Below the pieces are notes generated by a model. That model made no database searches and was not told the DNA's origin. It saw nothing but the letters and a program-made list of their open reading frames with translations. Of a stretch of DNA of 64,000 bases, positions 7,247 to 63,329 are shown piece by piece. Numbering within the stretch: position 1 is the first letter of the stretch; each line of letters starts with the position of its first letter. The translations under genes and the position numbers were made by a program. Origin of the DNA: Clitopilus passeckerianus (taxonomy: Eukaryota > Basidiomycota > Agaricomycetes > Agaricales > Entolomataceae); the NCBI GenBank assembly GCA_944990035.1, contig CALYLX010000080.1, forward strand, positions 310,001 to 374,000, given 5' to 3'.

Positions 7247-7261
7247 ATTGCGCTTGTTCGA
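7247..7261 (-). promoter_or_regulatory. Family promoter box, variant TCGAACAAGCGCAAT
   Basis: One of nine copies of the shared box. It lies 89 bp upstream of the MSPI start at 7157 in gene orientation and differs from the consensus at two positions. Confidence 0.7.
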
Positions 7262-8231
7262 GCCAGGGCAGGTCCCAATAACCTCCGGATTTGGAGCATG
7301 GTGGCTGGCTGGTAGGAAAGTCCAGTCACCAGTCATCCAGCCTGCCGATGGTGGGAAGGCCAGTGGTCCAATATAGAAAGATCCTAGCAGCTACGGACAG
7401 CAAGTGAGCATGGGTTGGCTGAATATTCATCTTATGGCCTACCATATTCCACTGTCGCACAAGGTCGGGGCCCTACATGTAAAAAAGCTTCTGTCCGCGC
7501 ACCCGGTGGGAAGCTTCGGGTACATCTCAGATGATGACCAGTTCAAGATGATCGTTGGTGTTGTAGGTGTTGGCGCAACATGATGCAATTTTGCCGTCTT
7601 TCCATCTTAGAGGAGTATTCTCAAGATACGTTCATGGAATTTGTAGACGGAGGTATTTGAACGAAGAGCAGAAAACTTGCGGAGTTGGCATCACGAGACT
7701 AAACGCGTCGCGTCGTGTCCAACGCGTCTCGACATCCTCGATGATCAGGATCGATTTAGACTCCCCGCAGGTGCACAGATTACCGATATCAGTACCACAG
7801 ATGCATTTGCATCCGCAGTTCCCACTGAAGATCAATCGTTTTATGCGATAAGAGTAAGCGAAAGAAGGAAACATGCCAACAGGGACTGGTTTGCGTCTGA
7901 AGTCGAGTGATAATACATCGTTTACTGACTTGTGGTTCCTCCGGGGTCCATGATTGATTGCCAACAGCGAAGGAAGAGTACTAGAGAGAAAACCTAGGAA
8001 CGAAGTCCAGGTAATTCAGGCCATAGAAAACGGAATGAAGATCGAGTACTAAATGTATGGCAATAAATAAATGAAGTTGTGTTCTGTATGTAAGATATCC
8101 GTAGGGACCAGGCAGAGAGAAAATGTGAAAAGACATATAAAACAGGTTAGGAATGCGTATGTAGGAGAAGGAATGTAATGAAGGACAGACATCTAAGAAT
8201 GTAACCAGTCTAAGCTGGGTCTACAAGAAAG
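7262..8231. other. Mostly intergenic; one tentative small gene
   Basis: Apart from the tentative cysteine-containing frame at 7632-7951, no gene is supported. A GC-rich motif ACGCGTCGCGTCGTG lies at 7703-7717 and recurs elsewhere in the window. Confidence 0.4.
7632..7951 (-). CDS. Tentative small Cys-X-Cys protein
   Basis: A model with a 26-nt first exon (7951-7926), an intron with GTAAAC and CTTCAG ends, and a second exon (7824-7632) gives about 72 residues. It includes a CGCKCIC...CTCGES segment with six cysteines in Cys-X-Cys pairs, reminiscent of fungal metallothioneins. The C-terminal half has no recognisable features and overlaps the GC-rich repeat at 7703, so the model may be wrong. 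It could also be a chance frame. Confidence 0.25.
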
Positions 8232-9179
8232 TCAAGCTTTCGGAAAGAACCAGGGACGATATGCCCGCCGATTGCGGCGAGGTCTCGAACGCCGGACAGG
8301 GGCTGTCGCCTCCACCACCCCAACGGAACTCGCTACCTCACTGGCAGGCTCTTGCGCAGCTACCTGCGAACGCAGCTTGTAGACCTCCTCTTGTAGGCGA
8401 AGATTATCAGCGCGCAAAGCCTTATTTTGCGCGACCATATCAGAGATTTGTTCTTGGGTGTCAGATAGTTGGATCTGAAGAGCTTCGTACTCGTCCTTGA
8501 GGGTCTCGAATTCAGAACTGTTATTGCGGGCCGCACCTGTGGCGGATTTCCAAGAATCTTCAAGGCTGAGGACAGTTGTCGTTAACTTTGTCGTCATGTC
8601 CGACCAATCCTTTTTCTCTTTGGCGATATGTGTCCAGACAGCGGCGTACGCTTGATCCTCAGTTCTCAGTGGATCCAAGGGTTCGGGTTGGAGTCTCCCA
8701 GGTTCCTCCTGGCTCCCATTGCCGATTAGCAGCCCGCTCGCTTGAGTAGAGGCCTCCTTGTACTGTGGTACAGTCACCAGTACTGGGCCGAGGCGTAGTT
8801 CCCCAGCTTCTGATTCTGAAGCAGGCTTGCAGTGAGAAGAATCCGCCTTGGCGAGATCGAATCGAGGGAAGATGTTGCGGAAGATAACCCAAGAGAGCAT
8901 ACATAAGGCGAGTCCAGCAATGTACGGAAAGGCGTTTTCCTCCAGGACGACCAATCTGGCGAGGGAGGGACTATTATGCTTTATTGAGAGGATGATTGTG
9001 ATTGACTGTGCCCAGAGCCAACGAGAGGCGTGGATAGCTACTACAGCTAGACGTTGAAGTTCTGGTTGAAGTTGACCGGCGCGGAGGCTATTGACACAGA
9101 TCCGGGCGGCGAGAACGAAGATAAGAGCGGTCAGGTAAGTGAATAGTTTGGCGGGAGGTTTTGCGAACTTGAGCTCCAT
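8232..9179 (-). CDS. Family-A membrane/coiled-coil protein, copy 1 (315 aa)
   Basis: Single-exon gene starting at ATG 9179. The N-terminus has a hydrophobic segment (residues about 10-32) and a second around residues 85-105 (FPYIAGLALCMLSWVIF). A polar linker follows, then a coiled coil from about residue 185 to 275 (LEDSWKSA, LQIQLSDTQEQI, LRLQEEVYKLRSQV). The C-terminus is strongly basic and ends with RRAYRPWFFPKA. Its paralog at 32806 shares the (N/K)AFPYIAGLA segment, AKADSS and the YAAVW(T/V).IAKE+KDWS(D/N)MT block. The basic RPWF tail is also seen in the long proteins at 14608 and 34456. The shared promoter box lies 70 bp upstream. An endomembrane or nuclear-envelope protein with a cytosolic coiled coil fits the layout, but the function is unknown. 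Confidence 0.8.
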   Translation of the reverse strand: MELKFAKPPAKLFTYLTALIFVLAARICVNSLRAGQLQPELQRLAVVAIHASRWLWAQSITIILSIKHNSPSLARLVVLEENAFPYIAGLALCMLSWVIFRNIFPRFDLAKADSSHCKPASESEAGELRLGPVLVTVPQYKEASTQASGLLIGNGSQEEPGRLQPEPLDPLRTEDQAYAAVWTHIAKEKKDWSDMTTKLTTTVLSLEDSWKSATGAARNNSSEFETLKDEYEALQIQLSDTQEQISDMVAQNKALRADNLRLQEEVYKLRSQVAAQEPASEVASSVGVVEATAPVRRSRPRRNRRAYRPWFFPKA

Positions 9180-9249
9180 TTTAGCGTGTTCGGATTGTGA
9201 CGGTGGTATTGAAGTAGAAGTGGAACCGCTATCGGGTGCTTTCTCCGAG

Positions 9250-9264
9250 ATTGCACTTGTTTGA
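9250..9264 (-). promoter_or_regulatory. Family promoter box TCAAACAAGTGCAAT
   Basis: Exact consensus copy, 70 bp upstream of the ATG at 9179, same orientation as the gene. Confidence 0.75.
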
Positions 9265-9348
9265 CGCTCGCACTAGCCTGGTCAAAACTCATCGACAAAT
9301 GTATTATCAACCATAAATTATATGTTTATATAGCAGAAAAGATTTTTA

Positions 9349-9445
9349 GTGCGACCAAGTTCATAGCAGCCAAAAGCTGCTACTACGCTCAAAGTTGACA
9401 TTTTAAATTCAAAACCGAGGCTCTCGCCTCCAATACTCTTCACTA
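9349..9445 (-). other. Conserved 3' block downstream of family-B copy 2
   Basis: Counterpart of the block at 5621-5720, about 500 bp after the family-B stop at 9949. Most positions match, including GAAGAGTATTGGAGGCGAGAGCC and the CGTAGTAGCAGCTTTTGGCTG part. It also lies just upstream of the box at 9250, so the 3' region of one family gene abuts the promoter of the next. Confidence 0.6.
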
Positions 9446-9948
9446 GCCACCACTCGCCCACTACCCGCCGGAGGTTCGAAGCTGGTTCCCCAGGAATAGA
9501 ATACCGAGTCAGGAGTGCGCTGACTGTGGTAGGCCTAATCCTGATGGAGGGCAGAAGCCCTGCAATCGTAGCAGCTGTCGGAAATGACGCGTACTCATCG
9601 CAGGAATCCCGAGGAGTTAGTCACATCTTGTATGCTAGTCAAGTCTGTGAATTTGCAGTCCAGCTTGTACTATGGCGAGGGACGGATGGAAAACGAAGTG
9701 CTGAGCCTACGACGTTCAGGGAGGCTGAGTCCGGAATGGCAGATGATCGTGGAGGGGAAGAGTATAGATGGTTTCGGTCGAGGTCCAGAATGCGATGGTG
9801 ATGCTGTGGCGATGGGTATTGGTTGCTGATCACATCCTTGACACGAATAGAGAAAGGGAAAGGTTGAAATAAACGAGAAATATATGGAAGGAAGAGCTCA
9901 AGAAAGAACCAAAGACATCGAGAGAAAGGGCCGGGTGTCGAGGCGAAT

Positions 9949-11005
9949 TTACTTCCACTTGGCGAAGGTGCTTCGCACCTTGTCAAAGAAGGCCTCACGA
10001 CGGCCGACAGGCTTGGGCTTCTCGTCGGCCTTGACATCGACCGCGACAGGCTCGGAAAGGTCGGGCGTGTTTGTTGCAGTTGCAGCACGCTTGGGAAGTG
10101 CGAACTTGGATTTTAAAGACGCCTATACAAAAAAGTCCATTAGAAAACCGAAAGGATAGAACGATGTATAATTAACATACAAAATTATAAGATCTGATAC
10201 GACGCTTGTTCCGGGGCACCACTGTGACGGCCTTGGGTACCTCAGGTGACCGTTGCACGATAGGAGGTTGGAAGTGAACGTAGTCGACTTGCTTCTTCCC
10301 CGCAGCCTCCATCTTCACGATCTTTGCTTTCAATCCCTTCACTTCCGTCCGAAGCTCGCGGATGGAATGCGCCGTTGCCCGATTGTCAAAGATGTTGATT
10401 ATGGCCATGAGGTCCTTGTCCTGAGCTTTTTTGAGCTTGACGAGTCTGGCTTCGAGGAGCGTGATGCCCAGTATCGACCTCGCAGCGTTTACGCCTTTGA
10501 CGTGGTACTCCTGGAGAATAGTTTCGAGTCGAAGGCATCGAGCGGCGAAATAGGAGTGGAAGCATTGCAGAAGGAAGTGGGTTTGGGTACGGATGTATTG
10601 ACGTGCTCGATTGACGCAGTCAAGAGCGAGTGTATAACCCTGGTTGATGAACGAACGATATCAATGCCGAATACCATTCGTGGTGGCCAGAATAGGGGTG
10701 AATATGGCTAAAGTTGATTTCTTGAACCATTGGAAAAGGTACGCTATTTGTCCAGTTAAACTGGTTTTTGCGTCCTTTCTGGGCCGTTTGTGGGTGTTGT
10801 CCGTCAGGACCATCGAGTAGAGTGGATATTCAATCCATAAAGTAGGATATTCGATGAGAGATGAGAGGAGAAAAGCAACATGGGTAGATATTCCTGCAAG
10901 GACGGCTCCCAAGGAAGCCCAGAGCACCTGGATGGCCGCGAGAAGGCTAAAGAAGGCAAGATAGAAGGCGGAAAGGAGTTGGAAGGTGACGTAAATAGGA
11001 GACAT
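9949..11005 (-). pseudogene. Family-B membrane/coiled-coil protein, copy 2 (one in-frame TGA)
   Basis: Exons 11005-10181 (825 nt, exactly the length of exon 1 in copy 1) and 10122-9949 join in phase over an intron with GTATGT and TGTATAG ends. The N-terminus MSPIYVTFQLL... is hydrophobic. The helical region (EARLVKLKKAQDKDLMAIIN, IRELRTEVKGLKAKIVKMEA) and the C-terminal LPKRAATATNTPD motif match copy 1. An in-frame TGA at codon 115 (10663-10661) stands where copy 1 has tryptophan, a single G-to-A change. The frame after it is completely preserved through both exons. It lies head-to-tail with the family-A gene and copy 1. Confidence 0.7.
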
Positions 11006-11090
11006 TGCAGCGAAGATGGTCGTGCAGAAGGATGAGGAGTCATCCGCCAGAGCGAGGCTTTTAACATCTCCTGGATTCTAACTTCGACCG

Positions 11091-11105
11091 ATTACACTTG
11101 TTTGA
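11091..11105 (-). promoter_or_regulatory. Family promoter box, variant TCAAACAAGTGTAAT
   Basis: 85 bp upstream of the MSPI start at 11005. Downstream of the box, TTAAAAGCCTCGCTC and ACGACCATCTTC are shared with the 38491 promoter. Confidence 0.72.
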
Positions 11106-12000: not shown

Positions 12001-12521
12001 TTAGTACAGGCCCCAGTGGTAAGAGCCATTGTCATGGTATACACCAGTAAAGCATTGATTGGCACCAAAATAAAATTTACCATTGCCCTTTCTTTCCTTG
12101 TAGAATGGTTTGCCGGATTTCGGTGCACCAGCATAGGCGCTGATGGCGGTGACTGCCCCAGCACGCACATCGGTGGTGTATTGATAGCAGAGAGTGCCTT
12201 CAGGAGGCGTGAACGAGTACTTGATGGTGCCATCCGGTCCACCAATGCATTCGAATATCATGCGCCTGTAATCGCCGATGATGTTATAACCAAAGCCGAG
12301 GGTGTTGAGGTCGTAGAGATGCTGGGCGATTTGATCTCCGTAATCGTTGTCTAGAACAAGCGATAAGAAAGAGAACGCAAAGAGACAATGAGATAAAAAA
12401 AAGACTTACTGAGCTCCATCAATCCACCTCCACAGTACCTGCTACCCTACTTGCAAACGGCAGCAGATGTCGAAGCTGCAAGCATGGAGACGACGGTAAG
12501 GACGGTTAAGCTGAATTGCAT
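12001..12521 (-). pseudogene. Small secreted cysteine protein, copy 1 (in-frame TAG)
   Basis: Exon 1 (12521-12410) encodes a signal peptide (MQFSLTVLTVVSMLAASTSA), then CK, an in-frame TAG and RYCGGG. Exon 2 (12350-12001) follows a 59-nt intron with GTAAGT and TTCTAG ends. The mature part resembles the gene at 13781: YCG, YG.Q..QHL.D and (E/D)C(I/V)GG..G.IK are shared, and the intron sits at the same place in the same phase. The TAG replaces the residue after CE/CK in the other copy, so full secretion of the mature domain is not expected from this allele. The protein class is small secreted, effector-like, function unknown. Confidence 0.65.
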
Positions 12522-13780
12522 GATATGGAAGATGCTTTGCGGTAGAGTTGTGAACGGTTGAATTCTGGAGAGGATGGGCAATTTTCCTAGACCATTAAAT
12601 ATATTTTCTTCTTGGGGAAGTTCGATGGCGTATTCTCCGATTTTGGTAGAGTTGGTTTGTTGCCAGAGTTACTTTCCAGCCGTTCGGTTTGGTACTGTCA
12701 GACCACGCGCTAAGATGATAGATTCATGAGGATTCGTCGAACGCTCCTATCTTGGTTTACGAGATTGGCCAACACAAATGTTGAATCGGTCTTTGTTTCG
12801 GATCTTCAATTCGCTACTGGTCGTATATCAGGCCTAAAGAAGCTTGAACAAAGTTACTTTGACATTACAGGAATCAAGCATGATATCACGGTCAATTAAG
12901 GCTTGATACAAACAGCCTGAAACTGAGTTTTTTCGCTTCAAAATCCATACATCGAAGCGAAGATCATAGTTCTGTGCCCCGATGCTCTTTCAGAGGGCCG
13001 AAATTCCAAGCGGGGTCCTCCAATAGACGGGGATTCAATACCTCCGTGGCAAACCTTCTGTCTTTATCTGACTTCTTTGAGGCAAGCTGGGAAACCCTCG
13101 CTTTGCTTCCCCTAAGGGCGTTAGGCTTACTAGAGGCCTTGCTTCGAAGCCCTCCAGACTCGTCACGTACAATACCCAAAAATTAGAGTGCCATTCTTCT
13201 TCTACATCTTATACGACCATGGAACCACCCACAGCCTTGATAATTCCATGTAGGGGCTGAAGTGACAATATTATGCGCCACAGTAACCGGTAAACTTTGG
13301 AATCACGAACGAGTCAAACGGTCGCAATTGCGAAGGTGACCGTTGGGCTACTTTACCCAGGACGGTAGTGTCCAATGGCCGTAATTCCATCAGATAAATG
13401 TCATGATACCTCAGCAAGCGGCAAGTTTAGTGTCGATATCATGCTCACAATTTAGAGTTTCAGAACGAGCTAGAAGGCCCACCCCTCCGGAAACAGAAAA
13501 TTCCGGGTTCATCTTGGCAAAGAGGCTCATGAAAGAGTGGACCCGACCCCGAACATTCGGCTGCAGTGACTCTGGTGACACAAATTAAAGTTTGTGTGAA
13601 CTGACTGAGAATGGATTGATGAAGGATAGGAGTTCACCTCTCATCCCAAAGCGAACAACCTGGTACATGGTGCGAAATTCGACTATAACTACTACACCAC
13701 CAAACGGTATTTATTTTACAACCGACAGAGTTATCAACAAAGCCCAAAGCAACCTCCCAACTCAACCAAATCGTTTCACA
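12522..13780. other. Intergenic between the two secreted-protein genes
   Basis: Two overlapping shadow frames at 12964-13186 and short plus frames have no recognisable domains. The two secreted-protein genes are divergently arranged around this stretch, so it should contain both promoters. Confidence 0.45.
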
Positions 13781-14143
13781 ATGCGTGTTTCTATTTCTCT
13801 CATCGCAATATCTACCGCACTCGCTGCGTCCACTTATGCCAGATCCTGTGAACGGGGCATGATATACTGCGGATACTCTCTTGAAAAAATAGGCGAATTG
13901 ATTCTTCTCACTCTCAATGGTAACCTGAGGTGCTAACACAAAGCAACCTTGATTAAAGGGAGTTATGGAGCCCAGATGAGGCAGCACCTGAACGACAGCA
14001 TCTTATATGCTGACTACAAGCAGACGCTGTTCGACTGCGTCGGTGGGGTCAGTGGAATCATCAAGGTCAAAGAGGAATGCGCCAAGGATGGTGGGAAATG
14101 CATTGCTGGTTCTACTGAGGGATACGATAGCTGTGGAAAGTAG
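13781..14143 (+). CDS. Small secreted cysteine protein, copy 2
   Basis: Exon 1 (13781-13919) begins with a signal peptide (MRVSISLIAISTALAASTYA) and SCERGMIYCG. Exon 2 (13959-14143) carries YGAQMRQHLND, FDCVGGVSGIIK, ECAKDGGKC and a C-terminal SCGK. The mature protein has six or more cysteines, probably disulfide-paired outside the cell. The intron would be only 39 nt (GTAACC to TTAAAG, with GCTAAC inside), short for a fungus, but its phase and position match the paralog at 12001-12521. About 107 residues in total. A role in surface interaction or as an effector is possible but not shown. Confidence 0.65.
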
Positions 14144-14607
14144 AGTTGTGCTGAGGCATATTGTGTTCGTTAACTACTACGTTCGCTAGTCTCCGACAGT
14201 GGGGAATCCTGTTCATGTTCTACCCTACTTGTAAATTCGGAATCACGAAATTTAAATGCATAGCGTTGTTTGCCGAACTTTGACGGTAGACTGAAGTCGT
14301 CAAAATAGCCTATATGAGGCGGCGGATTGGAAAAAAATTACGATTCTCGTTCTGACATAATTGACCATAATGCAACTCATAAAAGGAACCAGAAAAAGGG
14401 AGAGAATATAAAGTAAATGGAAGAGATATTGTAATAAATAAATGGAGTCCGCGTCTTTATCAGGGATCAGATGAAGAAAAGAACTTAACGGCAAAGAACA
14501 TAGTAAAGTAACCAGTAAAGAATGTGGATCCAAGAAAAGGATGTATGTAAATGAACGACGAATATTGAAGAGTATAGAACGAAATCTAAACCAGATCCGT
14601 AAAAAGA
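14144..14607. other. Intergenic, no gene seen
   Basis: Convergent 3' region between the secreted-protein gene and the long minus-strand coiled-coil gene; AT-rich, no supported frame. Confidence 0.5.
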
Positions 14608-16667
14608 CTAACCCTTTGGCTTAAAGAACCAAGGGCGATGAGAACGACGAGAACGATTTGATGATGGGGCAGGGGCAGTGGCAGCAGCGGCAGTTCCGTT
14701 TCCTCCGTCCTCTTTTGACCCATGCCTACGCCGATGCCTAGGCCTTGATTTCTTCTGCGGCAGGAGAGAGGCAGTATCGATATCACGGGCAGTAACGTCA
14801 ACGGCATCCAGCGTGAGCGACGAGGGTAATTCAAGAGGGACAGGTACCAGATGAGGCGACGACGAGGGCGGACATACAATGGGAAACACGTGTGGTTGGA
14901 CGACGGGCCTGGGCGTCTTGTAGATGGGGACAGACTTGACCTCGGGAGGGGATGGTTGGGGTAGAGGGAGGACGAGAGCGCAACGACTGGTGCACACATG
15001 GCGGTCATGTACAGACGATTCTTCCTTAACCGTCGTCGGAACCACAAGCGGGGTATTGTGGCCCTTAACGGTAGAAGAGCCGCCCTCAGTCGCGGTCTTC
15101 GAGTCCACCTTATCTCCCTAGTATCCTCCAATGGCCTAGCTTCGACGATGAGGGATCCATCGCTAGTGTTGTTTAGGAGGGTGTTCTCCGCTTCGTCCGA
15201 ACTTCCCGTCTCTTCTTCATCAACATTTCCTGTAGTGACTCCTGCGCCTCCCGTCTTAACATCTTTGCGATGACCATCCCGGGCGGCGAAATAGCTCTTG
15301 AGCTTGTCCAAAGACTCTAGGCGGTCGTCATCCGCGGCCCCATCAGCGTCGTTCGCCTCTCCTTCAAGCGCAATATCTTCATCAACTCTGCTAGTACCTG
15401 AGGCATTGGAGCGAAGCCCGTAGATTTCCTGGCGGAGCTTCTTGTTCTCGTTGTCTAGAGCGACGTTTTGTTCAGAGGCGACGATCAGTTGGCCCTGGGC
15501 GTGGTGAAGATCCTCTTGAACAGCTGCCTTATCCTGCTTGGCGACTTCGAGCTCCAAAGCGCCGTTGTTCGCCGATGACTTTGCTTCCTCAAGCTTGAGA
15601 TGAAGATACTCCTTCTCGTGCGCATGTTTCTCCTTGACCTTCTCCAGAGCAGCTCTCTCGGTAACCCGACCGTCCCTCTCCTTCTTCAAAACTATCAAAT
15701 CAACCACTCTAGCCACCTTCTCTTCCTTCAATTCCACGCCCAACGAGCTAACCTGAGCGCGGATAGTAGTAACCTCGGACTCGGCCGCAAGTCTCTTCGT
15801 ATGCTGATATTCCTTCGAAGCCTCCGTCTCGATGACTTGGGCGGTAAGGTTCTCGATAGTCTTCTTGGCCGACTGCAGGTCCTCGCCTAGCTGCTGATTC
15901 TCAGCCTTGGTCACCTCAACCTTCTCCTTCGATCGCCCCAGCTCCTCCTGCACCAATGCCTTTTCCTCCTTCAGGTTCCTGTTCTCGTCCCGCAATCTTA
16001 TCATCTTTCCTTTAACCATCTCTAGCTCACGACCCTTGGCCGCTTGCCCACGCAGTATGTTCTTCAGAGCAGCGATCCTCGCCTTCTGCATCTTCACCAC
16101 ACGCCTAACGCCAGCCACCTTTATGCAACTCCTCGCCCTTTCCATCTTTAGCCCCTTGTTTTCCTCCTTGGTGACATCCAGCACCTCGCGTAGGTGTCGA
16201 ATTACGGCTTCTGATTCACCACACGCAGAACAAGGACGGATTCTTGTTTTATCCTTCACGGTGAAATGAGAAGCGAGTATCGAGTCGGCGGCTAGCCACA
16301 TTGAGAAATAGATCCGGACGATGAAGATAATGACGGCGAGCATCGGGTTGAGGACCCTTGAACATCGCTGGGGTGTTCTACGAATGTTCTTGTAGAGGTG
16401 GCCGACGATGAGGGCGCGATGCTTTGGACTTCTGAGACTGGAGTAGGTGAAATAGGCGGCGTGTAAGCTTGATTTGACGATCGTGATGATGACGATGAAA
16501 ACCGGCCATAATGAACAAAGTGAGAGGCCATTGATGAGGGGATGGCGCAAAGCGCGTTCGGTGAAGACTAGATGATCGTCTATGATATGGCTGGCCGATG
16601 CCAGAGGCCCGAGGATGAGGAAAAGAAGAATCATGGTTACTTGGAAGACGGGATGGTGGCTGAACAT
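14608..16667 (-). pseudogene. Family-C long membrane/coiled-coil protein, copy 1 (frameshifted)
   Basis: Single exon from ATG 16667. The N-terminal 165 residues hold several hydrophobic segments (signal-like start; ...LSLCSLWPVFIVIITIV...; ...MLAVIIFIVRIYFSMWLA). Then comes a long coiled coil (about residues 180-435, many heptads such as ENQQLGEDLQSAKKTIENL). An acidic middle (LESLDKLKSYFAARD) is followed by a basic tail ending HRPWFFKPKG. It is closely similar along its length to the gene at 34456. Near 15116-15118 the frame shifts by one base in a GGG run on the coding strand. The correct tail continues in the other frame to a stop at 14608, whereas the unshifted frame reads into unrelated sequence to 14586. 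This is a recent lesion or a sequencing error. Confidence 0.75.
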
Positions 16668-16747
16668 CTTTGGATCGTTGTGGTGGGAAGACAACGAGTG
16701 GGATACTGTATTCCCCCCAACAGGTCGGCTTTTATGGTCGTCCTCCC

Positions 16748-16762
16748 ATTGCACTTGTTTGA
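16748..16762 (-). promoter_or_regulatory. Family promoter box TCAAACAAGTGCAAT
   Basis: 80 bp upstream of ATG 16667. About 75 bp around it, from TTCAAGC.CTTTGAGGCTG through GGGAGGACGACCATAAAAGCC, is almost identical to the promoter at 34361, including a TATA-like CATAAAAG. Confidence 0.8.
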
Positions 16763-32695: not shown

Positions 32696-32710
32696 TCAAA
32701 CAAGTACAAT
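32696..32710 (+). promoter_or_regulatory. Family promoter box, variant TCAAACAAGTACAAT
   Basis: 95 bp upstream of the ATG at 32806. It lies only 90 bp after the OMA1 stop, so the family gene has its own compact promoter. Confidence 0.72.
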
Positions 32711-32805: not shown

Positions 32806-33639
32806 ATGGGGCCCCAGGAATTTCTCGCCAAATCGTTCTCCCTCTTAACTGCTGGTGTCTTCGTTTGCGCCTTCCAAGTCTGTGTCCACGGCCTCCTCAC
32901 CTCTCAATTTCCGGAACTTCAGCCTGAACGCCTGATCATCCAAGCCTTTCGTTGGTTCTGGACACGGTCAACGACAATCATACCGCTAATACAGCGAAAC
33001 ACTCCTACGTTCCCTGGTGAAATAGTCGTATTTGCTCGAAACGCCTTTCCGTATATCGCTGGACTCGCTGTGCTTGTTGTTTCATTCAAGCTCTCCTGGA
33101 TCATTCTTTGTCGACTGGCTCGACTCGTCCGTCGATCTCCAACCAATCCCGCCAAGGCGGATTCTTCTCGATGCGGGACTGTCGTTGAGGAGCTAGAGGA
33201 GCTAAAATCAGATCCGGAACTGTCTGCTGTAACCTACAAGGAGGCTTGTTCCCAAACGAGCGTGCTGGAAATTGGGAATCAAGAGGAGCCCGAAAGCAGT
33301 GAACAGCGAAACCCTCCTACCAATAGTCGTGATACCTACGCCGCCGTCTGGGTACAAATCGCCAAAGAGAGAAAGGATTGGTCGAATATGACGAAAAATT
33401 TGACTGCGAGTATCTATACCCTGGCGGATTCTTGGAAAGAGACAATGGGAAAGGCCGACGAGAAGAGCGCAGAACTCAAGACACTCAAGCATGATACGCA
33501 GGTGCTTCGGAGTCAGCTATACGATGCCCGGAAGCAAGCGTCCGCTATTGGCTTGGAGAACAGGACTTTGCGCACCGAGAATGGGCGTCTTCAGAAAGAG
33601 GTTGATAAACTGGCGAGTCGTTTTCCGCGCAAAGTCTAG
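32806..33639 (+). CDS. Family-A membrane/coiled-coil protein, copy 2 (277 aa, short tail)
   Basis: Single exon. The frame is open from 32614, but the start MGPQEFLAKS at 32806 aligns with the paralog at 9179 and lies downstream of the promoter box. Hydrophobic segments lie near residues 10-30 and about 85-110 (AFPYIAGLAVLVVSFKLSWIIL). The block KADSSRCG, YKEACSQTS and YAAVWVQIAKERKDWSNMT is shared with the paralog, and a coiled coil fills the last 90 residues (LRSQLYDARKQ, LRTENGRLQKEVDKL). It stops at ...ASRFPRKV and lacks the basic RPWF tail of copy 1, so the C-terminus is truncated or has diverged. Confidence 0.78.
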   Translation: MGPQEFLAKSFSLLTAGVFVCAFQVCVHGLLTSQFPELQPERLIIQAFRWFWTRSTTIIPLIQRNTPTFPGEIVVFARNAFPYIAGLAVLVVSFKLSWIILCRLARLVRRSPTNPAKADSSRCGTVVEELEELKSDPELSAVTYKEACSQTSVLEIGNQEEPESSEQRNPPTNSRDTYAAVWVQIAKERKDWSNMTKNLTASIYTLADSWKETMGKADEKSAELKTLKHDTQVLRSQLYDARKQASAIGLENRTLRTENGRLQKEVDKLASRFPRKV

Positions 33640-34360: not shown

Positions 34361-34375
34361 TCAAACAAGTGCAAT
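34361..34375 (+). promoter_or_regulatory. Family promoter box TCAAACAAGTGCAAT
   Basis: Exact consensus, 80 bp upstream of ATG 34456, followed by GGGAGGACGACCATAAAAGCC with a TATA-like CATAAAAG; nearly identical to the promoter at 16748. Confidence 0.8.
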
Positions 34376-34455: not shown

Positions 34456-36594
34456 ATGTCCAACCTTCATCTCATCACTCAAACTATCACTACTCTTCTC
34501 CTCGCCATCGGCCACTTGGCCTTGGCCAATCCCATGGTACACTTTCAATTCACCTTCGCCCAGGGCACCTTAAGCCATCCTCTCGTCCTCAACATGCAGG
34601 CATTCTATTCATCTCTGCTTTTCGTGGTCAACAGAACGGTCCTCGAGTCCAGCCCTCGAATCACCTGCGTTTTCCGTTATTGCCCACGCCCACGGCGACG
34701 TATCAGAGACCCGGTGCATCGCTGCCTTGCCGTCATCCACCTCTTCGAGATCATTAGTGGTGCATTCCGGCGATGTTCTACAGCGCTCGTCTCAATCCTC
34801 GCCGTTTCCATCTCCGTCGTCTGTAACGTTCCCGCCAACATCCTCCTCAGGACCACAGGGTGGCGCTCTCTCGTCAACCACCTCTTCGGGAACATTCGCA
34901 GTGCTTTCCAGCGATGCTCAACTGTGCTCGCCTCGATTCTCGCCATTACCGCCTGTGCCATCATGGATATTCCCCTCGTCATCCGCTTCATCTTCCGGAT
35001 CTACTTCTCGATATGGCTTGCCTTCGACTCCATGCTCGCCTTTCACATCGCTGGAAAAGAACGAACAGGATCCCGTCCCTGTTCTGCGAGTGATGAAGAG
35101 AACATCGTAATTCGAGAGCTACGCGAGGAGTTGGAGGTCATCAAGCAGGAGAATAAGGCATTGAAGGCGGAAAAGGCAGCGAGTTGCATCTGGGTGGCTG
35201 GGGTCCGGCGTATGGTGAAGTTGCAGAAGGCGAGGATTGATGCTCTGAAGACCAGACCACGTGTTCAGAAAGCCAAGGGTCATGAACTGGAGGTGGTTAA
35301 AGGAAGGGCGGCGGCGCTGCAGGCGGAGAATCAGGGTTTGAAGGAAGAGAAGGAGTTAATGAAGGAGGAGCTACACCGATTAACGCAGCAGGTTGAGGTG
35401 ACCAAAGCTGGGAATCAGCAGCTAGGTGGAGACCTGCAGTCGGCCAAGAAGACTGTAGAAAACCTCACCGCCCAAGTTGTCGAGACCGAGGCTTTGAAGG
35501 AAGAGGAACACAAGAAGAGGCTTGTTGCAGAAACCGAGGTTGCTACTTTTCACGATCAGGTTGTGGCGTTGGGTAAAGAGCTCAAGGGGATGAAGATGGA
35601 ATCGGTTGTGGTGATGCTGGTTTTGAAGAAGGAGAGGGAGGGCAGGACTACTGATAAGGCGGATGCGGAGAAAGCCAAGGAGGAGCACACCCAGGAGACG
35701 AAGAACCTCCAGCTCCAGCTCGCGGAAGCACAATCGTCGGCGAACAGCCGCGCGTTGGAACTCGAAACTGCCAAGCAGGACAAGGTAGCTGTTGAAGAAG
35801 AGTTACTCAACGTCCAGGGTCAATTGACTGTTGCCTCTGGCCAAAAAGCCACTTTGCTCGTCGAGAACAAGGAGCTCCACCAGGAACTCCACGACCTTCG
35901 ATCTAAATGCTCGACTGCGGCTCCTATCGCCAAGGACAACACTCCGGATGTCGAGTCGAGCTTTGCTGATGAAGCTGAGGATGATGAAGACCTGGAATCT
36001 CTGGAGAAGCTGAAGAACTATTTCGCCGCCAAGGACGTGGGTGTCAGTCGGATGGATCTTGCTACTGCGAAGGCCGAAGAGGAGGAAGAGGATGTCATCA
36101 CGGATCACGACGACACTCTTCTCAACGAGAACAGCGAAGGCCGTATCATCGTTGAAGCGAATTCATTGAAGGATGGAGCGAAGGAGGATTCGAAGATCAC
36201 CGCCGAGGACTGTTCATCCACCGTCAAGAATCGCAGCACCCCGCCTGCGGTCCCGACAACGGTTAAGGATGAACCTTCTGCACTTGATCGTCAAAAGCGC
36301 ACCAGCGGTTGCGAGCTCGTCCCCCCTCTAGCCCGAGCATCCTCTCCCATTTCTGCCGTATCGCCTTCCAAGCCCACGATGAGCGTCAACACCGATGCCG
36401 CCATTGACCTTGATGTTTCCTCGACCCCACCACAGAGAAAGTCAAGGCCTAGGCGTCGGCGTGGGCCGAGGCGAGCTGGGCAAGGTGCAAATGATGTTGA
36501 AATTGTCGCCGTCCCCGTCGTTCCTACTCCTACTCCGACATCGAATCGTCGGCGACGCACTCACCGTCCTTGGTTCTACCAGCCGAAAGCTTAG
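34456..36594 (+). CDS. Family-C long membrane/coiled-coil protein, copy 2 (712 aa, intact)
   Basis: Single intact exon; MSNLHLITQ is the start matching the paralog at 16667. The N-terminal 200 residues contain several hydrophobic segments and an internal repeat: AFRRCSTALVSILAVSISVV and AFQRCSTVLASILAITACAI, about 50 residues apart, where the paralog has one such unit. A coiled coil of about 270 residues follows (VRRMVKLQKARIDALK to ENKELHQELHDL), then an acidic region (DDEDLESLEKLKNYFAAKD), a proline/serine linker and a basic C-terminus (KSRPRRRRGPRR...) ending THRPWFYQPKA. Layout suggests a membrane-anchored rod with a basic tail. Function unknown. Confidence 0.82.
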   Translation: MSNLHLITQTITTLLLAIGHLALANPMVHFQFTFAQGTLSHPLVLNMQAFYSSLLFVVNRTVLESSPRITCVFRYCPRPRRRIRDPVHRCLAVIHLFEIISGAFRRCSTALVSILAVSISVVCNVPANILLRTTGWRSLVNHLFGNIRSAFQRCSTVLASILAITACAIMDIPLVIRFIFRIYFSIWLAFDSMLAFHIAGKERTGSRPCSASDEENIVIRELREELEVIKQENKALKAEKAASCIWVAGVRRMVKLQKARIDALKTRPRVQKAKGHELEVVKGRAAALQAENQGLKEEKELMKEELHRLTQQVEVTKAGNQQLGGDLQSAKKTVENLTAQVVETEALKEEEHKKRLVAETEVATFHDQVVALGKELKGMKMESVVVMLVLKKEREGRTTDKADAEKAKEEHTQETKNLQLQLAEAQSSANSRALELETAKQDKVAVEEELLNVQGQLTVASGQKATLLVENKELHQELHDLRSKCSTAAPIAKDNTPDVESSFADEAEDDEDLESLEKLKNYFAAKDVGVSRMDLATAKAEEEEEDVITDHDDTLLNENSEGRIIVEANSLKDGAKEDSKITAEDCSSTVKNRSTPPAVPTTVKDEPSALDRQKRTSGCELVPPLARASSPISAVSPSKPTMSVNTDAAIDLDVSSTPPQRKSRPRRRRGPRRAGQGANDVEIVAVPVVPTPTPTSNRRRRTHRPWFYQPKA

Positions 36595-38490: not shown

Positions 38491-38505
38491 TCAAACAAGC
38501 GCAAG
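38491..38505 (+). promoter_or_regulatory. Family promoter box, variant TCAAACAAGCGCAAG
   Basis: 85 bp upstream of the MSPI start at 38591, followed by CTAAAAGCCTCGCTC and CACGACCATCTTC as in the promoter at 11091. Confidence 0.7.
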
Positions 38506-38590: not shown

Positions 38591-39620
38591 ATGTCTCCTA
38601 TTCAGACACTCTTTCAATTCATGTTTGGCGTTACAGTCACCCTTCTCGAGCTCTCCTGGTCCCTTGTTTCTCTCTTAACGATCGTCGAACCGATTGTCGA
38701 GGGTCTGCTCAGCCCGGTTATGGCCATCCTCAACGTCGTCATCCTGCCCCTTATCACTTGGATGCAAGATGCCCTCACTTTATGCTTCCCGGTGGACGAT
38801 ACCATCGCGCGGACCAGAATCAACGCACAAGCTACTACTGTCGTGCAACACATCAAGAAGGTGCTTTTAAGAGCCTTTGCTCCTATCATCAACATTATCA
38901 ACGGGTTATTCGGCCTCTATCACTGGCTGGATGACAGTGTAAACGGACTCGCCCTCTACCTTGCCAACGGAGCCACTCAATATGGCCGGAAATCGATCGA
39001 CCTTTCACTTGAACCGACCCAACGCCTTTAGGGGAAGTTTAGTACCCTCTACGACGAAGGTGTCCGATTCCTCCAGGGGATACTCGGAATCACCTACCTC
39101 CTCGCTTTATGCACCAAGTTGCAGAAACAACTCGAAGATGGCAAATTCAGTACCCCTCCCATGGCCATTGAGGCGAGAAAGATAGAGTCTAACGAGGGTA
39201 CCATCGTTGAACTGCGAGCGTCACTCAAAAAATGCGCATGAGAAGATTTCCATTCTGGAAAATGCGAAGACTACCAAGTGCCCCTGTCAACAAGTCAATC
39301 TCAACATCGGGCGTAGAACACCCGTGTCATCGAAGAAAGTGCAAGTGAACAAATTGAGGCGTCACAGCACCTGGGTGGCCACGAATATCGTACGTTCATC
39401 TCATACCGTTTGACTTCTTTCGGTTTTACTGAACCTATATGTGTTTTAGCTGCCCCCCAGACCCAAGGCGGAGCTCCCTCAACGCGCTGCTACCACCCCT
39501 AACACTCCAGACCTGTCTGATCCTGCCGAATCGGAAGCGCACCCTGCATCCTTACGCCGTCGTGCTATCTCCAACTTGAATCGGTTGAGGGATAGGTTCG
39601 GTCTTCCCCATCGCAAATAA
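38591..39620 (+). pseudogene. Family-B membrane/coiled-coil protein, copy 3 (TAG plus frameshift)
   Basis: Exon 1 (38591-39389) and exon 2 (39450-39620) flank an intron with GTACGT and GTTTTAG ends at the same place as in copies 1 and 2. The N-terminus (MSPIQTLFQFMFGVTVTLLELSW) is strongly hydrophobic, with further hydrophobic segments to residue 60. A TAG at 39029-39031 interrupts the frame after 146 codons. Homology continues in frame (FLQGILGITYLLAL.TKLQKQLE) until a six-A run at 39227-39232, where one extra A shifts the frame. Exon 2 restores the family C-terminus (ELPQRAATTPNTPDLSD, then an Arg-rich helix). The intact part could still give a 146-residue membrane protein. Confidence 0.7.
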
Positions 39621-44760: not shown

Positions 44761-46358
44761 AATTCACACGAAGCCTCCGAATTTGACGTGAGTTCTGTTT
44801 CTTGCACTTTCTTCACGTTCAATCCGACAACAACAACGACAGCAACGACAACGCCAGCAACGACCATAACAGCGATGACAGAGCCCTGACGGGCCCTCTA
44901 GTGGCCTCAAACTTCGGGACTCATCAAAGTTCCAGGAATTAGAAATCAGAATCTTGGCTTGTGTAGAGACCTGGTTCCGAACTGCTTTCCTCAAAGAAGT
45001 TGCTGTGATGAAGTCGACTGTATTCATCAGAAGTGCTCTGACTGGCTCAGAGCAGCGTTCTAAGGTGCCATTGCGCTATTCTTTTGAAGTGGCCTGTACA
45101 GGTATGCGCCCCTTCTGTAATGACAGGGATGCTTTTGATTGATTTCCTTTGCAGTTGAGGTCCGTAGGCATGGTCATGCAACGAATGAAAGCATCAAGCA
45201 TGGATTTACGGTAGGTGTACCAATCGCATTCCGTTCATTGACTTGGCATGACTGATGTTGTTTCTGCAGGCGTCTAGCTGCACCTCGATGACCCAAAATT
45301 CTTCTGAAGCGTCAAAAACCCTTGCTGGCAGCTGTGCACCAACCTTCGCGAGTCTACCATCTACGCTTCGGGCTGACGTTGGGAATGAATCCGACTACCA
45401 GCAAACAATTGCAATCGGAATACGTCCGTAAAACCCCATCAACCCTACAGGACAGCAGCATCGACGGACCATCGCCATTATCGTCGGTTTCCATAATGCT
45501 TGCCTTCCAGCAGCTCCTGCGGTTTTTCGCTATGAACATGTTGCTCTTCCGCGCAATCGGTGACGTGTTGGGGCAATAGCTCTCCCTCCTGGTGTCATAT
45601 TCGGCGATTATGATGTTAGCCTCACCTTCCAGGTCCTGGTCGTGATTTACGGGCACCTCGAACATGTTTTCCTGATACTCTCCTTCATTATCCAATAAGC
45701 CCTATATCTGGTCAATCGGCTCCTTGCGACTCATCGTACCCTCCTCCGCCGATATTCCCCTCTCCTGAAAGCCATCCTGTCATTTCCCCAATCAATCAGG
45801 TCAAGCTCTTCCTGCGCATCACCTCCCCACCCCCGAGCCCGCTTCTAAATCTAGGAATAGGAGGAGGAACAGGTCGCGTGGACGGTTGAGTTCCACTGCC
45901 TATTTCATTGCGCAACCTCAGAACAAGCCGGTAATGAAGGAGGGAGCGGGTCAGGGACCGGAGGATGCTGCTGAGGTCGAAATACTCTGCGAACAGAAGG
46001 ATACACTCAAGAATGATCTGGTGGTGGAAAGGGAGGAGAGGTGGCTGATAGATTGGTGCTCCGATCTGAGAGGGAGGCAATGGCGAAGGAATCTTGGATC
46101 TTGTATTGCATCTGCACGTCAAACAACTGACATTGGCCGCTACTGGATTTCTTCAAATTGGATGCCCGTATAGTCAATCTTATTTAGCTGCGCCTACTAT
46201 AATTTAGCTAGAGCCGTAGCTCATACATGCATTCCATGTAAATCACTTGTTGAAGCCATTTCAATGTCATAACATCTACCTAGGCCTCCATTTTTCTGTA
46301 ATGGTGCCCTAATAAACAACTGGATTAGATACTATCCAGGAGAAGAAAATATGGACAC
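44761..46358. other. No firm gene; one tentative spliced frame
   Basis: Between about 44950 and 45431 a plus frame (ETWFRTAFLKEVAVMK) can be continued through two introns with consensus ends (GTATGC to TTTGCAG at 45102-45154, GTAGGT to TCTGCAG at 45212-45269) to a stop, but no start and no known domain were found. The CAA/GAC-rich stretch at 44825-44872 is low complexity. The remaining frames up to 46173 are unsupported. Confidence 0.3.
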
Positions 46359-50033: not shown

Positions 50034-51035
50034 ATGTCTGCAAACCGATCTTGTCTCGCCGCCGTTGCCTGCAAAGTCCTGCCAATTGGCACTATCGTCC
50101 TCCTGGGCACACTTCCCTGGTTCATCCTTCGTCATGAATGCACGCTCTTTGACATCGCCAAAGGATATTGGCGTATCTTTGTCGAGGCTCACCTTTGCGT
50201 TCTGCTCCTCTCGTTCATCAAGAGCGGGGCTAATTCGAATTCTTTCGATGAACTGGGCGAGGTCAATCGGCTTCAGCAACGTCTTTCCTCCGAGGATCAA
50301 GCAAACAAGGCGTTAGCGAGAGAGCTAGCTACACAAAAGGCCGCTCAAGATATTGCCACGGCGGGTTACGAGAACGAACTGAATAACGAAAGGGAATTGA
50401 ACGCAACACTTCAGCAGGTGGTAAAGCTGCTCGGAGTCAAAGTTGAGGAAGAATTGGAAGCCGGAGAAAAGGCGGAAGAGGCGTATCGAAGCGTTGTAGA
50501 GAGGCTACAACACCTGGAGGAAGAGAAGAAGAAGCTTGTCGACAGGACCAAGGCCCGCGCAGATATGCAGAAGATACTCAAGGCGGCGCTCAAAACCCAT
50601 GCCCAAGTCAACGAGGAAGCAGATATAATGGTGCTTCATCTGGACAAAGCCGTGTCGGATGTGATGAAGGAACTCGTTCTTCCGACCAAAACCATTGCGT
50701 TGAATTGGAATGGAGAAGCATTGCTGCCTAAATTCGGAATACATGCTGGCCAGCCCTCCAGTATAGTTATTTCACCGCCTCGGGACGTAACGTCTTCCCC
50801 TGAACACGAATATCTCCCCGCTGCGATTCCGACGGCACAATCGACATCCACGGCTGCTGTGGACGACGGGACCCAAGTCGTCGCCTCTCCCCTTGCCGTT
50901 CAGGCTCAAGCTCCAGCCTCACGACGCACCAAAAAAAAAGTGGAGTGGAAGCCAGCGTACTGGAAGGAACGAGGACCTGGATGGGAGGCCAAGTTTGGAC
51001 CTGCTCCTCTTCTGTTCACCCAAGTCGGGGTTTGA
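50034..51035 (+). CDS. Family-D membrane/coiled-coil protein (333 aa)
   Basis: Single exon. The frame is open further upstream, but the ATG at 50034 follows the shared promoter box and gives MSANRSCLAAVACK. Two hydrophobic segments are evident (VLPIGTIVLLGTLPWFIL and AHLCVLLLSFIKS). A coiled coil then runs from about residue 75 to 205 (LQQRLSSEDQANKALARELA, VERLQHLEEEKKKLVDRTKA). A proline/serine linker leads to a basic, aromatic tail (RRTKKKVEWKPAYWKERGPGWEAKFGP) that recalls, but is not the same as, the RPWF tail of families A and C. The layout matches the other box-controlled genes although the sequence is distinct. Function unknown. Confidence 0.75.
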   Translation: MSANRSCLAAVACKVLPIGTIVLLGTLPWFILRHECTLFDIAKGYWRIFVEAHLCVLLLSFIKSGANSNSFDELGEVNRLQQRLSSEDQANKALARELATQKAAQDIATAGYENELNNERELNATLQQVVKLLGVKVEEELEAGEKAEEAYRSVVERLQHLEEEKKKLVDRTKARADMQKILKAALKTHAQVNEEADIMVLHLDKAVSDVMKELVLPTKTIALNWNGEALLPKFGIHAGQPSSIVISPPRDVTSSPEHEYLPAAIPTAQSTSTAAVDDGTQVVASPLAVQAQAPASRRTKKKVEWKPAYWKERGPGWEAKFGPAPLLFTQVGV

Positions 51036-59965: not shown

Positions 59966-61841
59966 TTACATCTCCATGAGCGCCATTGCTGCTTGAACTG
60001 CCGCAGCCGCAACCTTCTCGTGGAGCTCCTGGTCACTTTCCTCTGAGTCGAATCCGCGTTTGCTGACCTCGTATTCGTATTCGTATTCGCCTTGGTGTTC
60101 GCCCTCGTCAACCTCGAAGCTATGTTCGACGTCGTCAAAACCGTAATCTTCGATGGCATTGTCTCCCTCTTCATTATCTTCATCCCCGGGTTTGTTAACT
60201 TCAGATCCAGGCTCGTTGACCTCGGCGTCAGATTCGTTAACGTCGTCGCGTTGACTGAAGAGGTCCGCTATCTTGGCCAGGTTCGACCTCACTGAGTGGA
60301 GTAGTTGCTTGTCGCGTGGGCGGTTCTCCTCGTCGGCCATCCAGTTCCGCAGGTCGTTTATTGCTTCGTCTCCCTTATCAATCTTGATGCGCAAACCCCC
60401 TGAGGCATCTTGCTTTCGCCCATCGTCGTTCTGTGGGCCCTTGAGCTGATGGATAAGTTCGTCTTTCTCTGCCAGAATCCCCTCTAATTCTTCGACTGCT
60501 TCCATCAAGCCGTGGCAGCGCTCCTTCCATTCGACCTCTCGGTGTCGGTGCTGTAGGCCCCTGATGATCAGGTTCTTCTCGACCAGTTGTCGTTGATGCT
60601 TCTCCTCCATACGTCCAATTGTCCCCTTCAGCTTCCTAAGCCTCTCATTCTGGGCTTCCAACTGTTTCGCCTGGGTCGCAATGAGCGAATTCGTCTGTTC
60701 CTCCAAAGCCCGATATTGCTCGTCTGCGGCCGCATCTCTGGCCTCCATTTCCCTCAAATACTGCCTTGACAACTCTTTGCGATCCTTCCTCATCTCCTTT
60801 TGGTGCTTGCTGACGAGTGGGTCGTTTTCTCTTTGAACGGCGTCCCTGTCATTCTCGAGAGCAAGCACCACGTCCCTTTGCTCGTCGTTGTAATGGCGGA
60901 ACTCCCATGCGATCTTCTCCTTCTGCTCCTCCAACTCCTTCTTCTGCCGAGCGAAGGATTCTTCCATTTGTCGGTTGAGCGCTGAAACGCTAGCGGAGGT
61001 CTTTTCTTGTGTCTCGAGCCTTCCCTCCAATTCTCCGATCCTAGCGTCCTTCGCTTTCACAGAGGCATGTCCCTTCTCGATCTCTACCTTGGCGGCGCTC
61101 AATACTGAAATCGCCCTGTGGTGTTTCTTCTTCAATTCCAAAAACTGTCCGTCCTTGTCCTCGAGCTTCTCAGCGACTCGGACGTTATCTTCCTTGGCCT
61201 CGCTCACTTCGTCTCGGAGCGCCTTGATTGTGATTCGATATTCTTCGTTCTGGACCTCCGCCTTGTGATACTGTTCTTCGGCGCCCCTGAGAGTGTCCTC
61301 TAGTTCGGCGTGACGGAGCTGTAGCTCTATGAGGGTCTGTTTGGTGCTCTGCTTGCGTGGTTTCTTAGTTGGCATAGCTGTGTTGTCGTTGTTGTTGGCA
61401 GTTGTACTTGCGTGACGCGACTTAGGGCGAATTATAGTGCGAATTGCTTTCATCCATTCCGGCTTATGCTGGTGTGCTGATGTATCTTCTTTATCCTTCG
61501 AATCGTTGTGTATATCGGAACTATTTCTGTTAGGCGGGTTATCAATGAGAGCGTTCAACAACCGCAAGATGAAGGTAGACGACGTACTGATATTGGGAGT
61601 CCCGAGGACTGACCCCGCGCTTGAGCGTTGAACTCGTAAAACCGCCTTGGGCGATTTGATTAGGGCAAGGTTCCTCGTGATTATGATGGGCGGTATGATG
61701 ATGAGGAGAGGAGGAATCAATGTCAACGGTAGATGTAGACAATGTGGAAAATCTTCTAAAATTCAGGGTAAAGCGCTTGGGCGATCCCTTGGAAGAGGAA
61801 GTGGATGAAGAGAAGTTTGTTTTCTTTGTGAAGAAAGTCAT
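59966..61841 (-). CDS. Soluble coiled-coil protein with acidic C-terminus (604 aa)
   Basis: Two exons (61841-61588 and 61526-59966) joined in phase over a 61-nt intron with GTACGT and CTAACAG ends. The ATG at 61841 (MTFFTKKTNFSSS) is the first in frame. The N-terminus is basic and serine-rich without membrane segments (KGSPKRFTLNFRRFSTLS). A basic patch (PTKKPRKQSTKQ) precedes about 330 residues of heptad-rich coiled coil (LQLRHAELEDTLRGAEEQYHKAE to ELEGILAEKDELIHQLK). The tail is acidic with NE(S/P)(D/G)(A/S)EVN repeats and EYEYEYEV. It lacks the family promoter box and the hydrophobic N-terminus, so it is a separate coiled-coil gene. It may be structural or cytoskeletal; unknown. Confidence 0.75.
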
Positions 61842-61930
61842 ATTGATTGTGAAAATATTGGATGAAGTTCTCGTTCGATGATACTGGTATGAGTGCAAGT
61901 TTCCTCGGGAATGGGCGTCGTACGGGGCGG

Positions 61931-61998
61931 CCTTTTATAGACTGCCAGTGGTGGATGACAGTGGATGACGATCAAGGCCTGGTGGATGACAGTGGATG
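61931..61998 (-). promoter_or_regulatory. TATA box and 19-bp direct repeats upstream of the coiled-coil gene
   Basis: TATAAAAGG on the minus strand at 61931-61939, 90 bp upstream of the ATG, preceded by two direct copies of TGGTGGATGACAGTGGATG (61949-61967 and 61980-61998, plus-strand reading). They are plausible promoter elements. Confidence 0.5.
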
Positions 61999-63314
61999 CC
62001 GAGAGTGGAGGCTGGCAGCCGAGGTGAGGCAGCTATGACTTGAAGTTTCTGCGAGACTGGGACATGAATAGGGGGCAACGGACGTCAAGAAAACGAGATA
62101 GGGTATGTGGTCCAGTTCCCTGATTGTGAAGGTGGTCAGCGCTGAGGTTCTGGATTTCAATAACATATACGTACCAGGTTCACGGGGATAAACCTTGGGA
62201 TGTACGACAACAGAGTTAGTAGATCCGGTTGTTCAGCAGCCTTGGGTGATGAAGCAAGGTAGAGCGGCCAAGTGAGAGTAACGAATGGTCAATGCAAGAC
62301 CATACTCATTCCTGCTTCAAGCGATACAGGATTCTGGTAACAAGTTTCCCGTATGACAGGTTACACCTCACAGCGCAGATTTTTGGGTTCCCAAGCCATA
62401 AGAGTTTGTATATGCGCACAGCTGGCATGAATCCTGGCGCCTGTCGTCGAAACATCATCCGACCTGTTGGACATCCTGTAGCCTTCAAACGCTTTGCAGC
62501 TGCCATACCGTAGCATGGTTGTCGTCTGATTGAGATAATTGCAAATAATTGTGGCCTGCCATTGCCAAGTCTTAATATGTGGCTTAAAGGTCGGTCAGCG
62601 AGTCTGGAAGATTGAAGTAAAATTTGGGTGCTTTATTCGCGAGTAATCGAATGGTTGTGATTGCAAAAGCAAAAGCAAAGCAGCACTGTCCTTGGTTTGA
62701 ATCGGTTCTACGGATACCGTTGTCCCGAAAGCGGTCCCGTGACCCAAAGTGAGCATCCGATCATCCGACATGTGGCAAGCCGAACACACTTGAACTGCAC
62801 TTTCAAGAACTTCGAAAATACCAATGGCCTTTTACTCAGAAATATGCCATGTCAAGGCGACAGATAACAGCAAACTTATACTTGGCATTTGCCTGATATT
62901 CTTCTCGATGAGGAGTCTCGACAAATTGTAAGAAGGCATGCCAGCTGAACGACGAAGTCTTCCGCCTACCTTCCAGATCCTTCAGAATTCCTCGAGCACG
63001 AACCTTTGGCAGCGTTATACTTGATGAAATTGCGCAAAAATCTTGCACCGGTTACACCGCTACTGGTTGCCTGGTAGATTTATGGAAAATGAAGATTTTG
63101 GATACTCTAGGCGCAAAACACACCATCGGTAAGTTTACGATGGAGGCTTGGATAGCTCTTGCTCAAAGTCGCTTGTTTTCAGGTGGTTACTAGCTCAAAG
63201 AATGTATCTGCGGTGGATGTCGTTCGCGTTAAGCCCATTCCTTGGAAAGGGTGTACTTATTCAGATATGTCGTTGGTCAAAGGAATCGTCCAGCGATCAC
63301 GAAACCCGCCCAGG
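61999..63314. other. No gene recognised
   Basis: Intergenic, short unsupported frames only. Confidence 0.45.
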
Positions 63315-63329
63315 TCAAACAAGTACAAT
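63315..63329 (+). promoter_or_regulatory. Family promoter box, variant TCAAACAAGTACAAT
   Basis: 80 bp upstream of ATG 63410, identical to the box at 32696. Confidence 0.72.

Follow-up and report, generated by a model that had tools for sequence, protein, structure and literature searches.

Box-bearing genes of the window and the cluster

We analysed a 64-kb stretch of DNA (C80:310001-374000, hereafter the window) from a genome of 64.8 Mb in 160 contigs, which was searched as a whole; C80 is the window's contig, and C153 is the other contig carrying the gene cluster described here. Our subject is a 15-bp box that an earlier, sequence-only reading had reported upstream of nine genes for membrane and coiled-coil proteins. 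All nine boxes are present where that reading had placed them (7247, 9250, 11091, 16748, 32696, 34361, 38491, 49966 and 63315), on the gene strand and 53-95 nucleotides (nt) before the ATG, the distance from box end to ATG being 89, 70, 85, 80, 95, 80, 85, 53 and 80 nt in window order. The copies are, as it had described, exact (9250, 16748 and 34361) or variants with one mismatch (four copies) or two (two copies), and the two GTACAAT variants are those at 32696 and 63315. A tenth box in the window, at 45401 and with 2 mismatches, lies before a broken relative of gene E and was absent from the initial list. Chance matches had been judged unlikely, and rightly so: TCAAACAAGTGCAAT at up to 3 mismatches has 13 matches in the window versus a mean of 1.97 in shuffled windows, where the largest count was 7 and none of 100 shuffles reached 13. 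No open reading frame (ORF) of the box-gene type was found downstream of the remaining three of the 13 matches (2685, 46119 and 46739). The boxes and genes of the window are as follows (aa, amino acids).

6900..7157, minus strand: gene A1 to its premature stop; the same frame runs on to about 6330, and the C153 allele is open
7247..7261, minus strand: box of gene A1, 2 mismatches
8232..9179, minus strand: gene C, 315 aa, with two hydrophobic stretches, a coiled coil and the C-terminus RPWFFPKA
9250..9264, minus strand: box of gene C, exact
10661..11005, minus strand: gene A2 to its premature stop; the C153 allele is open
11091..11105, minus strand: box of gene A2, 1 mismatch
14586..16667, minus strand: gene B1, an ORF of 693 aa whose C-terminal frame is unlike that of the C153 allele
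16748..16762, minus strand: box of gene B1, exact
32696..32710, plus strand: box of gene C2, GTACAAT variant
32806..33639, plus strand: gene C2, 277 aa, a paralogue of C
34361..34375, plus strand: box of gene B2, exact
34456..36594, plus strand: gene B2, 712 aa, a paralogue of B1, with the C-terminus RPWFYQPKA
38491..38505, plus strand: box of gene A3, 2 mismatches
38591..39031, plus strand: gene A3 to its premature stop; the C153 allele is open further
45401..45415, plus strand: degenerate box of the E relic, 2 mismatches
45496..45945, plus strand: E relic with 4 internal stops; an intact E paralogue is on C153
49966..49980, plus strand: box of gene D, 1 mismatch
50034..51035, plus strand: gene D, 333 aa
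63315..63329, plus strand: box of gene F, GTACAAT variant
63410..64000, plus strand: gene F, 610 aa, extending beyond the window end (C80:373410-375242)

The sequence-only reading had called these genes scattered, which is not borne out, as all of them lie in a single cluster with two roughly mirrored arms that spans about 75-90 kb and is found on both C80 and C153. There are 12 box loci on C80, namely A1, C, A2 and B1 on the minus strand, and C2, B2, A3, the E relic, D, F, G and H on the plus strand, of which G (387926) and H (390109, with a weak box) stand beyond the window. C153 has 14 box loci, a count that includes A2a and A3a although their boxes have 3 mismatches to TCAAACAAGTRCAAT; relative to C80 it carries D2, an intact E and B3 in addition, and its E relic on the right arm lacks a box even with 3 mismatches allowed. 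Left of the cluster centre (about 17-32 kb of the window) all box genes point left, and right of it all point right. When the arms are compared at the protein level, the A, B, C, D and E types are found on both, in opposite orientation, together with a Cys-rich stretch and an ankyrin-type gene, although the ankyrin similarity between the arms may by itself be general. The mirror is rough (C153:322-400 kb), C and the ankyrin gene being out of order. Paralogues across the arms are 25-54% identical, and the synonymous divergence (dS) in the three pairs tested is 1.0 for C/C2, 0.90 for B2/B1 and 2.07 for A1/A3. An old inverted block duplication probably made the two arms. Small Cys-containing, secreted-looking ORFs also occur at window positions 12004-14100. 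The C153 counterparts of these ORFs (about 343.9-346 kb) have matches on the other arm, at C153:369-372 kb.

We read C80 and C153 as what appear to be two haplotypes of one organism on the basis of three observations. The stretch C153:310-430 kb is mostly collinear with the C80 region, the listed matches being 74-96% identical; each of ten 17-base words from outside the cluster recurs letter-identical at a second place, always on another contig; and among the Rpb2-type matches one gene is found twice (on C19 and C111) and two genes once. A retroelement integrase (PF17921, PF00665) lies at window positions 1643-2488 on the plus strand, within a 16-kb stretch of C80 (about 298.2-314.4 kb) that has no listed match on C153, which has an 18-kb stretch with D2 and E instead.

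Specificity and conservation of the box

A search of the whole genome returned 22 matches with at most 1 mismatch, 18 in the cluster and 4 elsewhere, versus 6 for the reversed pattern used as a control, and the initial degenerate pattern had 29 matches (19 in the cluster and 10 elsewhere; control, 6). The 17-mer TCAAACAARTRCAATCG has 19 genome matches with 0-1 mismatch, 18 of which fall within the cluster. Sites with at most 2 mismatches to TCAAACAAGTRCAAT number 26 in 244 kb, versus a mean of 0.35 and a maximum of 2 in 60 Markov simulations of 124 kb, and 24 of these 26 stand before genes of the groups A-H. At 50-110 nt downstream, 23 of 25 cluster sites have an ORF that is 60 aa or longer and starts with a hydrophobic N-terminus; the 25 include three weak sites (342925, 390109 and 416061) chosen since box-type genes follow, and leave out A3a. 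The same is true of 62 of 4000 random positions and of none of 14 outside sites, these being the outside matches to the 1-mismatch and degenerate patterns, each of which was inspected. The two cluster sites lacking a qualifying ORF belong to the E relic and to D2, where the first strong hydrophobic stretch comes later. The genome-wide search proposed by the sequence-only reading therefore supports it as far as strong sites are concerned, since these occur almost only in the cluster. We rejected a genome-wide regulon, as none of the 14 inspected outside matches precedes a suitable ORF. Within the cluster the same motif stands on the same strand at a constrained distance before its genes, which is one mark of a regulon sharing a cis-element.

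A second such mark is that the motif has been conserved while its flanks have diverged. With one locus taken per group, in four choices of loci, the identity of the box is 0.857-0.924, that of the adjoining 15 nt 0.33-0.37 and that of sequence further out 0.24-0.28; with ten loci of the seven groups A-G the corresponding values are 0.911, 0.37-0.38 and 0.25-0.28. Between the members of eleven allele pairs the box is identical at 0.927 and the windows beside it at 0.70-0.89. All 26 copies of the box agree at positions 4, 5, 7, 13 and 14, and position 11 is G in 16 of them and A in 10. The earlier proposal that conservation reaches beyond recent duplication thus holds, the box being 86-92% identical between groups whose flanks are at chance, and paralogues across the arms having a dS of 0.9-2.1.

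As to the layout of the promoters, 20 of the 26 copies have a TATA-like run whose start is 11-28 nt downstream of the box, versus 225 of 5000 random positions, and the distance from box end to ATG is 53-107 nt in the cluster. A second upstream motif resembling GGCTGACATT, starting about 26 nt before the box, reached an identity of 0.72 in a single set of four promoters picked by hand; two further sets did not bear it out, and we do not claim it.

Encoded proteins, gene decay and neighbouring genes

A hydrophobic stretch of 19 residues begins within the first 22 residues in 24 of the 26 ORFs read from the ATG, the exceptions being the 27-residue E relic and D2. In B, C, D, E and F the N-terminal part is followed by coiled-coil-like sequence. 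The earlier description of coiled-coil or helical sequence in eight of the nine genes suits those of groups B, C, D and F reasonably well, and the case for the three A genes is weak. A Pfam scan of the window ORFs B1, B2, C, C2 and D gave no family above the curated cut-off, only sub-threshold matches, mostly of coiled-coil type. A structure prediction for gene C from 9 sequences was too weak for a fold search (mean predicted local distance difference test score, pLDDT, 59; predicted template modelling score, pTM, 0.25); the model begins with three helices at the N-terminus, continues through a disordered linker into two long helices and ends in a disordered tail, which fits a membrane and coiled-coil protein.

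The groups B-F look like remote paralogues. A stretch like ENxxLxxEVYxLR is common to B, C, E and F, though it partly reflects coiled-coil composition, and D is linked to C and F through D2 (BLASTP about 1e-4), the D-C profile match being weak (probability 38.9). The tails of B and C are short and basic, and the sequences of C, B1a and B2 close with RPWF, followed after one or two residues by PKA; H is similar, with KKPWFLKS in a later frame. A profile comparison of A with C gave no relationship (probability 0.4), and A, G and H have no BLASTP match outside their own group. The notion of one multigene family may hold for B-F, which resemble one another as distant paralogues would; A, G and H have no demonstrable relationship to the rest. 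That the genes form an undescribed set is upheld for the members searched, for which no relatives were found outside the cluster. Protein searches against the genome itself, one for each of the groups A-G, matched only inside the cluster. In a set of 5.8 billion proteins, gene C gave 3496 candidates and no homologue at E <= 0.001, and an eight-sequence profile of B, C, E and F gave 7998 candidates and none at that threshold in a word-based search of limited reach; the same profile had no homologue in the PDB. A neighbouring LanC-like gene found 818 homologues in the same protein set, many of them named fungal proteins.

Members of the cluster appear to have been gained and lost at the locus, provided that the assembly is correct. 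On C80 the frames of A1, A2 and A3 each contain a premature stop at a point where the C153 allele is open, so that three of the nine window genes (boxes 7247, 11091 and 38491) are interrupted on this haplotype. B1 differs from its C153 allele in the C-terminal frame, B3 on C153 has 5 stops, and the E relic on C80 has 4. Across eight allele pairs the ratio of nonsynonymous to synonymous divergence (dN/dS) is 0.18-0.60 and the amino-acid identity 77-91%, from which the proteins seem to be under constraint and yet changing fast.

Several other genes lie in and around the cluster. ICMT-like and M48-like ORFs in the window centre resemble pheromone processing, and a link of the cluster to mating type was considered for this reason; we rejected it, as none of the 33 genome matches to the pheromone receptor STE3 is on C80 or C153. 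These matches group into ten loci, on C66, C69, C106, C154 and C155, which suggests a basidiomycete. The LanC-like gene mentioned above (window 40401-41543, plus strand; PF05147, 118 bits) has aligned DNA on both haplotypes. The best 120 of its 818 homologues are 52-61% identical to it, and the named fungi among these 120 are mostly species that we take to be Dothideomycetes. Given such relatives versus a STE3 set that looks basidiomycete, horizontal transfer of this gene is possible. NPHP3_N and ankyrin-repeat ORFs adjoin at window positions 52714-56157 (plus strand) in an NLR-like arrangement, and the other arm has an ankyrin-similar ORF at C153:334053-336503. Two ORFs, at 43397-43771 and 47907-48638 and both on the minus strand, resemble the Crinkler N-terminus without reaching the curated cut-off. 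A role in recognition or conflict would fit the NPHP3_N/ankyrin and Crinkler-like neighbours, which do not show it. A boxless coiled-coil-like ORF of 586 aa (59966-61726, minus strand) lies in a stretch of strong AT skew. No RNA family at gathering scores and no tRNA under a bacterial setting was found in the window.

The box as a probable promoter element of the cluster

From its conservation, its position and its near-exclusivity, we consider it likely that the box is a promoter element specific to this cluster, presumably the site of one transcription factor, which selection has kept in a fast-evolving set of membrane and coiled-coil genes. One factor would bind the box just upstream of the core promoter, with the TATA-like run 11-28 nt further on in most copies and the ATG 53-107 nt on, and once bound would turn the cluster on as a unit, so that its genes would be expressed jointly. 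The products would be lineage-specific proteins with an N-terminal membrane part, followed in B-F by a coiled coil; they may be held in the membrane by the N-terminus, with B-F pairing through the coiled coil, and could serve as membrane-anchored scaffolds. The set would have expanded by local duplication, probably including the old inverted block duplication, while selection would have retained the box as the promoter flanks were randomised and the coding sequences fell to 25-54% identity between the arms.

Several observations weigh against this interpretation. The 26 copies of the box are related and hence are not 26 independent cases, and between alleles conservation of the 15 nt that follow the box (0.891) comes close to that of the box itself. 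Six of the 26 copies lack the TATA-like run, namely those of A1 and the E relic and the four of C/C2, and the spacing of the run differs between groups. Strong sites are almost exclusive to the cluster, but weak sites elsewhere are commoner than in the control: at exactly 2 mismatches, 44 of the 48 matches to the 17-mer are outside the cluster, versus 24 reversed-control matches at up to 2 mismatches. Ten of these outside words are on two contigs each, and among the 44 matches downstream ORFs were inspected for those that also belong to the 14 outside sites. There may thus be some dispersed weak sites outside the cluster. Moreover, the state of the box does not strictly track the state of the gene: the association is suggestive for A and the E relic and is contradicted by the broken copies B1 and B3, which keep perfect boxes, and by the open alleles A2a and A3a, whose boxes have 3 mismatches.

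Shared ancestry would explain the spread of the box, since there is a single cluster with mirrored arms and since B-F have the appearance of remote paralogues. It is unlikely, however, that the box is a passive remnant, a word merely carried along by duplication from one ancestral gene. The remote homology of B-F, the restriction of the members to the cluster and the local duplication seen in the arms would all agree with such an origin, but between groups the sequence flanking the box is no more alike than expected by chance, and an unselected 15-mer would not remain about 90% identical when three arm pairs are at a dS of 0.9-2.1. We also think it improbable that the box is part of the transcript, in the 5' leader, or is a general core-promoter element, as could be supposed from its lying within 53-107 nt of the ATG with a TATA-like run nearby in most copies. 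That run is downstream of the box, so initiation would be expected downstream as well, and a general element should recur throughout the genome, where strong outside matches are at or near the control level. The duplication, loss and haplotype rearrangement of the cluster might point to a mobile-element end, a recombination site or a gene-conversion tract, which we regard as very improbable because between groups little is similar except the box and a few bases next to it, and because the box is fixed in position and orientation relative to the ATG. We give just as little credence to the box being a variant form of some general promoter element, for instance the CCAAT box. In its 3' part the box reads RCAATCG, which resembles a CCAAT-type core, but all 26 copies have G or A, and never C, immediately ahead of CAAT, the CCAAT pentamer is absent from every one of them, and conservation is no lower in the eight 5' bases than in the 3' part.

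In nematodes, the promoter motifs of effector genes are, as far as is known, spread over the genome, and locally duplicated, lineage-specific gene clusters are known in fungi. The cluster described here resembles the latter in gene gain and loss, in copy-number differences between haplotypes and in that no outside homologues were found; it differs in a promoter word that is more conserved than the proteins, in strong copies that are almost exclusive to the cluster and in its two mirrored arms. The nematode motifs, such as STATAWAARS in Bursaphelenchus xylophilus (PMC6062891) and those of cyst nematodes (PMC10946958), are reported to be associated with gene families, and there too a short motif upstream of many lineage-specific genes is taken as evidence for shared control. 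Here, in contrast, the strong sites are almost all confined to one cluster, and the proteins are predicted to be membrane and coiled-coil proteins. Compared with the CCAAT box and its Hap complex (PMC6652802), many copies of our box share a CAAT core followed by CG and a place close to the core promoter, but the box lacks CCAAT, has additional conserved 5' bases and has no genome-wide strong sites. A literature search with the box written in four ways, including one as read on the opposite strand, found no paper with the box, and among the papers listed in a search for such a gene family there was none; most subscription papers are outside the coverage of both. A shared promoter word before lineage-specific genes is already known, and what is unusual here is that nearly all strong copies of the word belong to a single cluster, whose arms are mirrored.

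A more speculative idea, to which we assign a low likelihood, is that a single dedicated factor controls one locus of fast-changing, membrane-anchored coiled-coil proteins, which differ in number and intactness between the two nuclei or haplotypes, and that these proteins serve cells or nuclei as a system for recognition or compatibility; if so, the box would act as a password by which new duplicates stay in the programme. More generally, the box offers a handle on a gene family for which no relatives were found, and through it the genes that belong together can be predicted. A single regulator is predicted from the cluster, whose two haplotypes appear to show members gained, lost and broken; knowing the factor and the inducing condition would reveal the role of the proteins. 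The locus would also be a clean case of a regulatory word that outlasts the proteins it controls.

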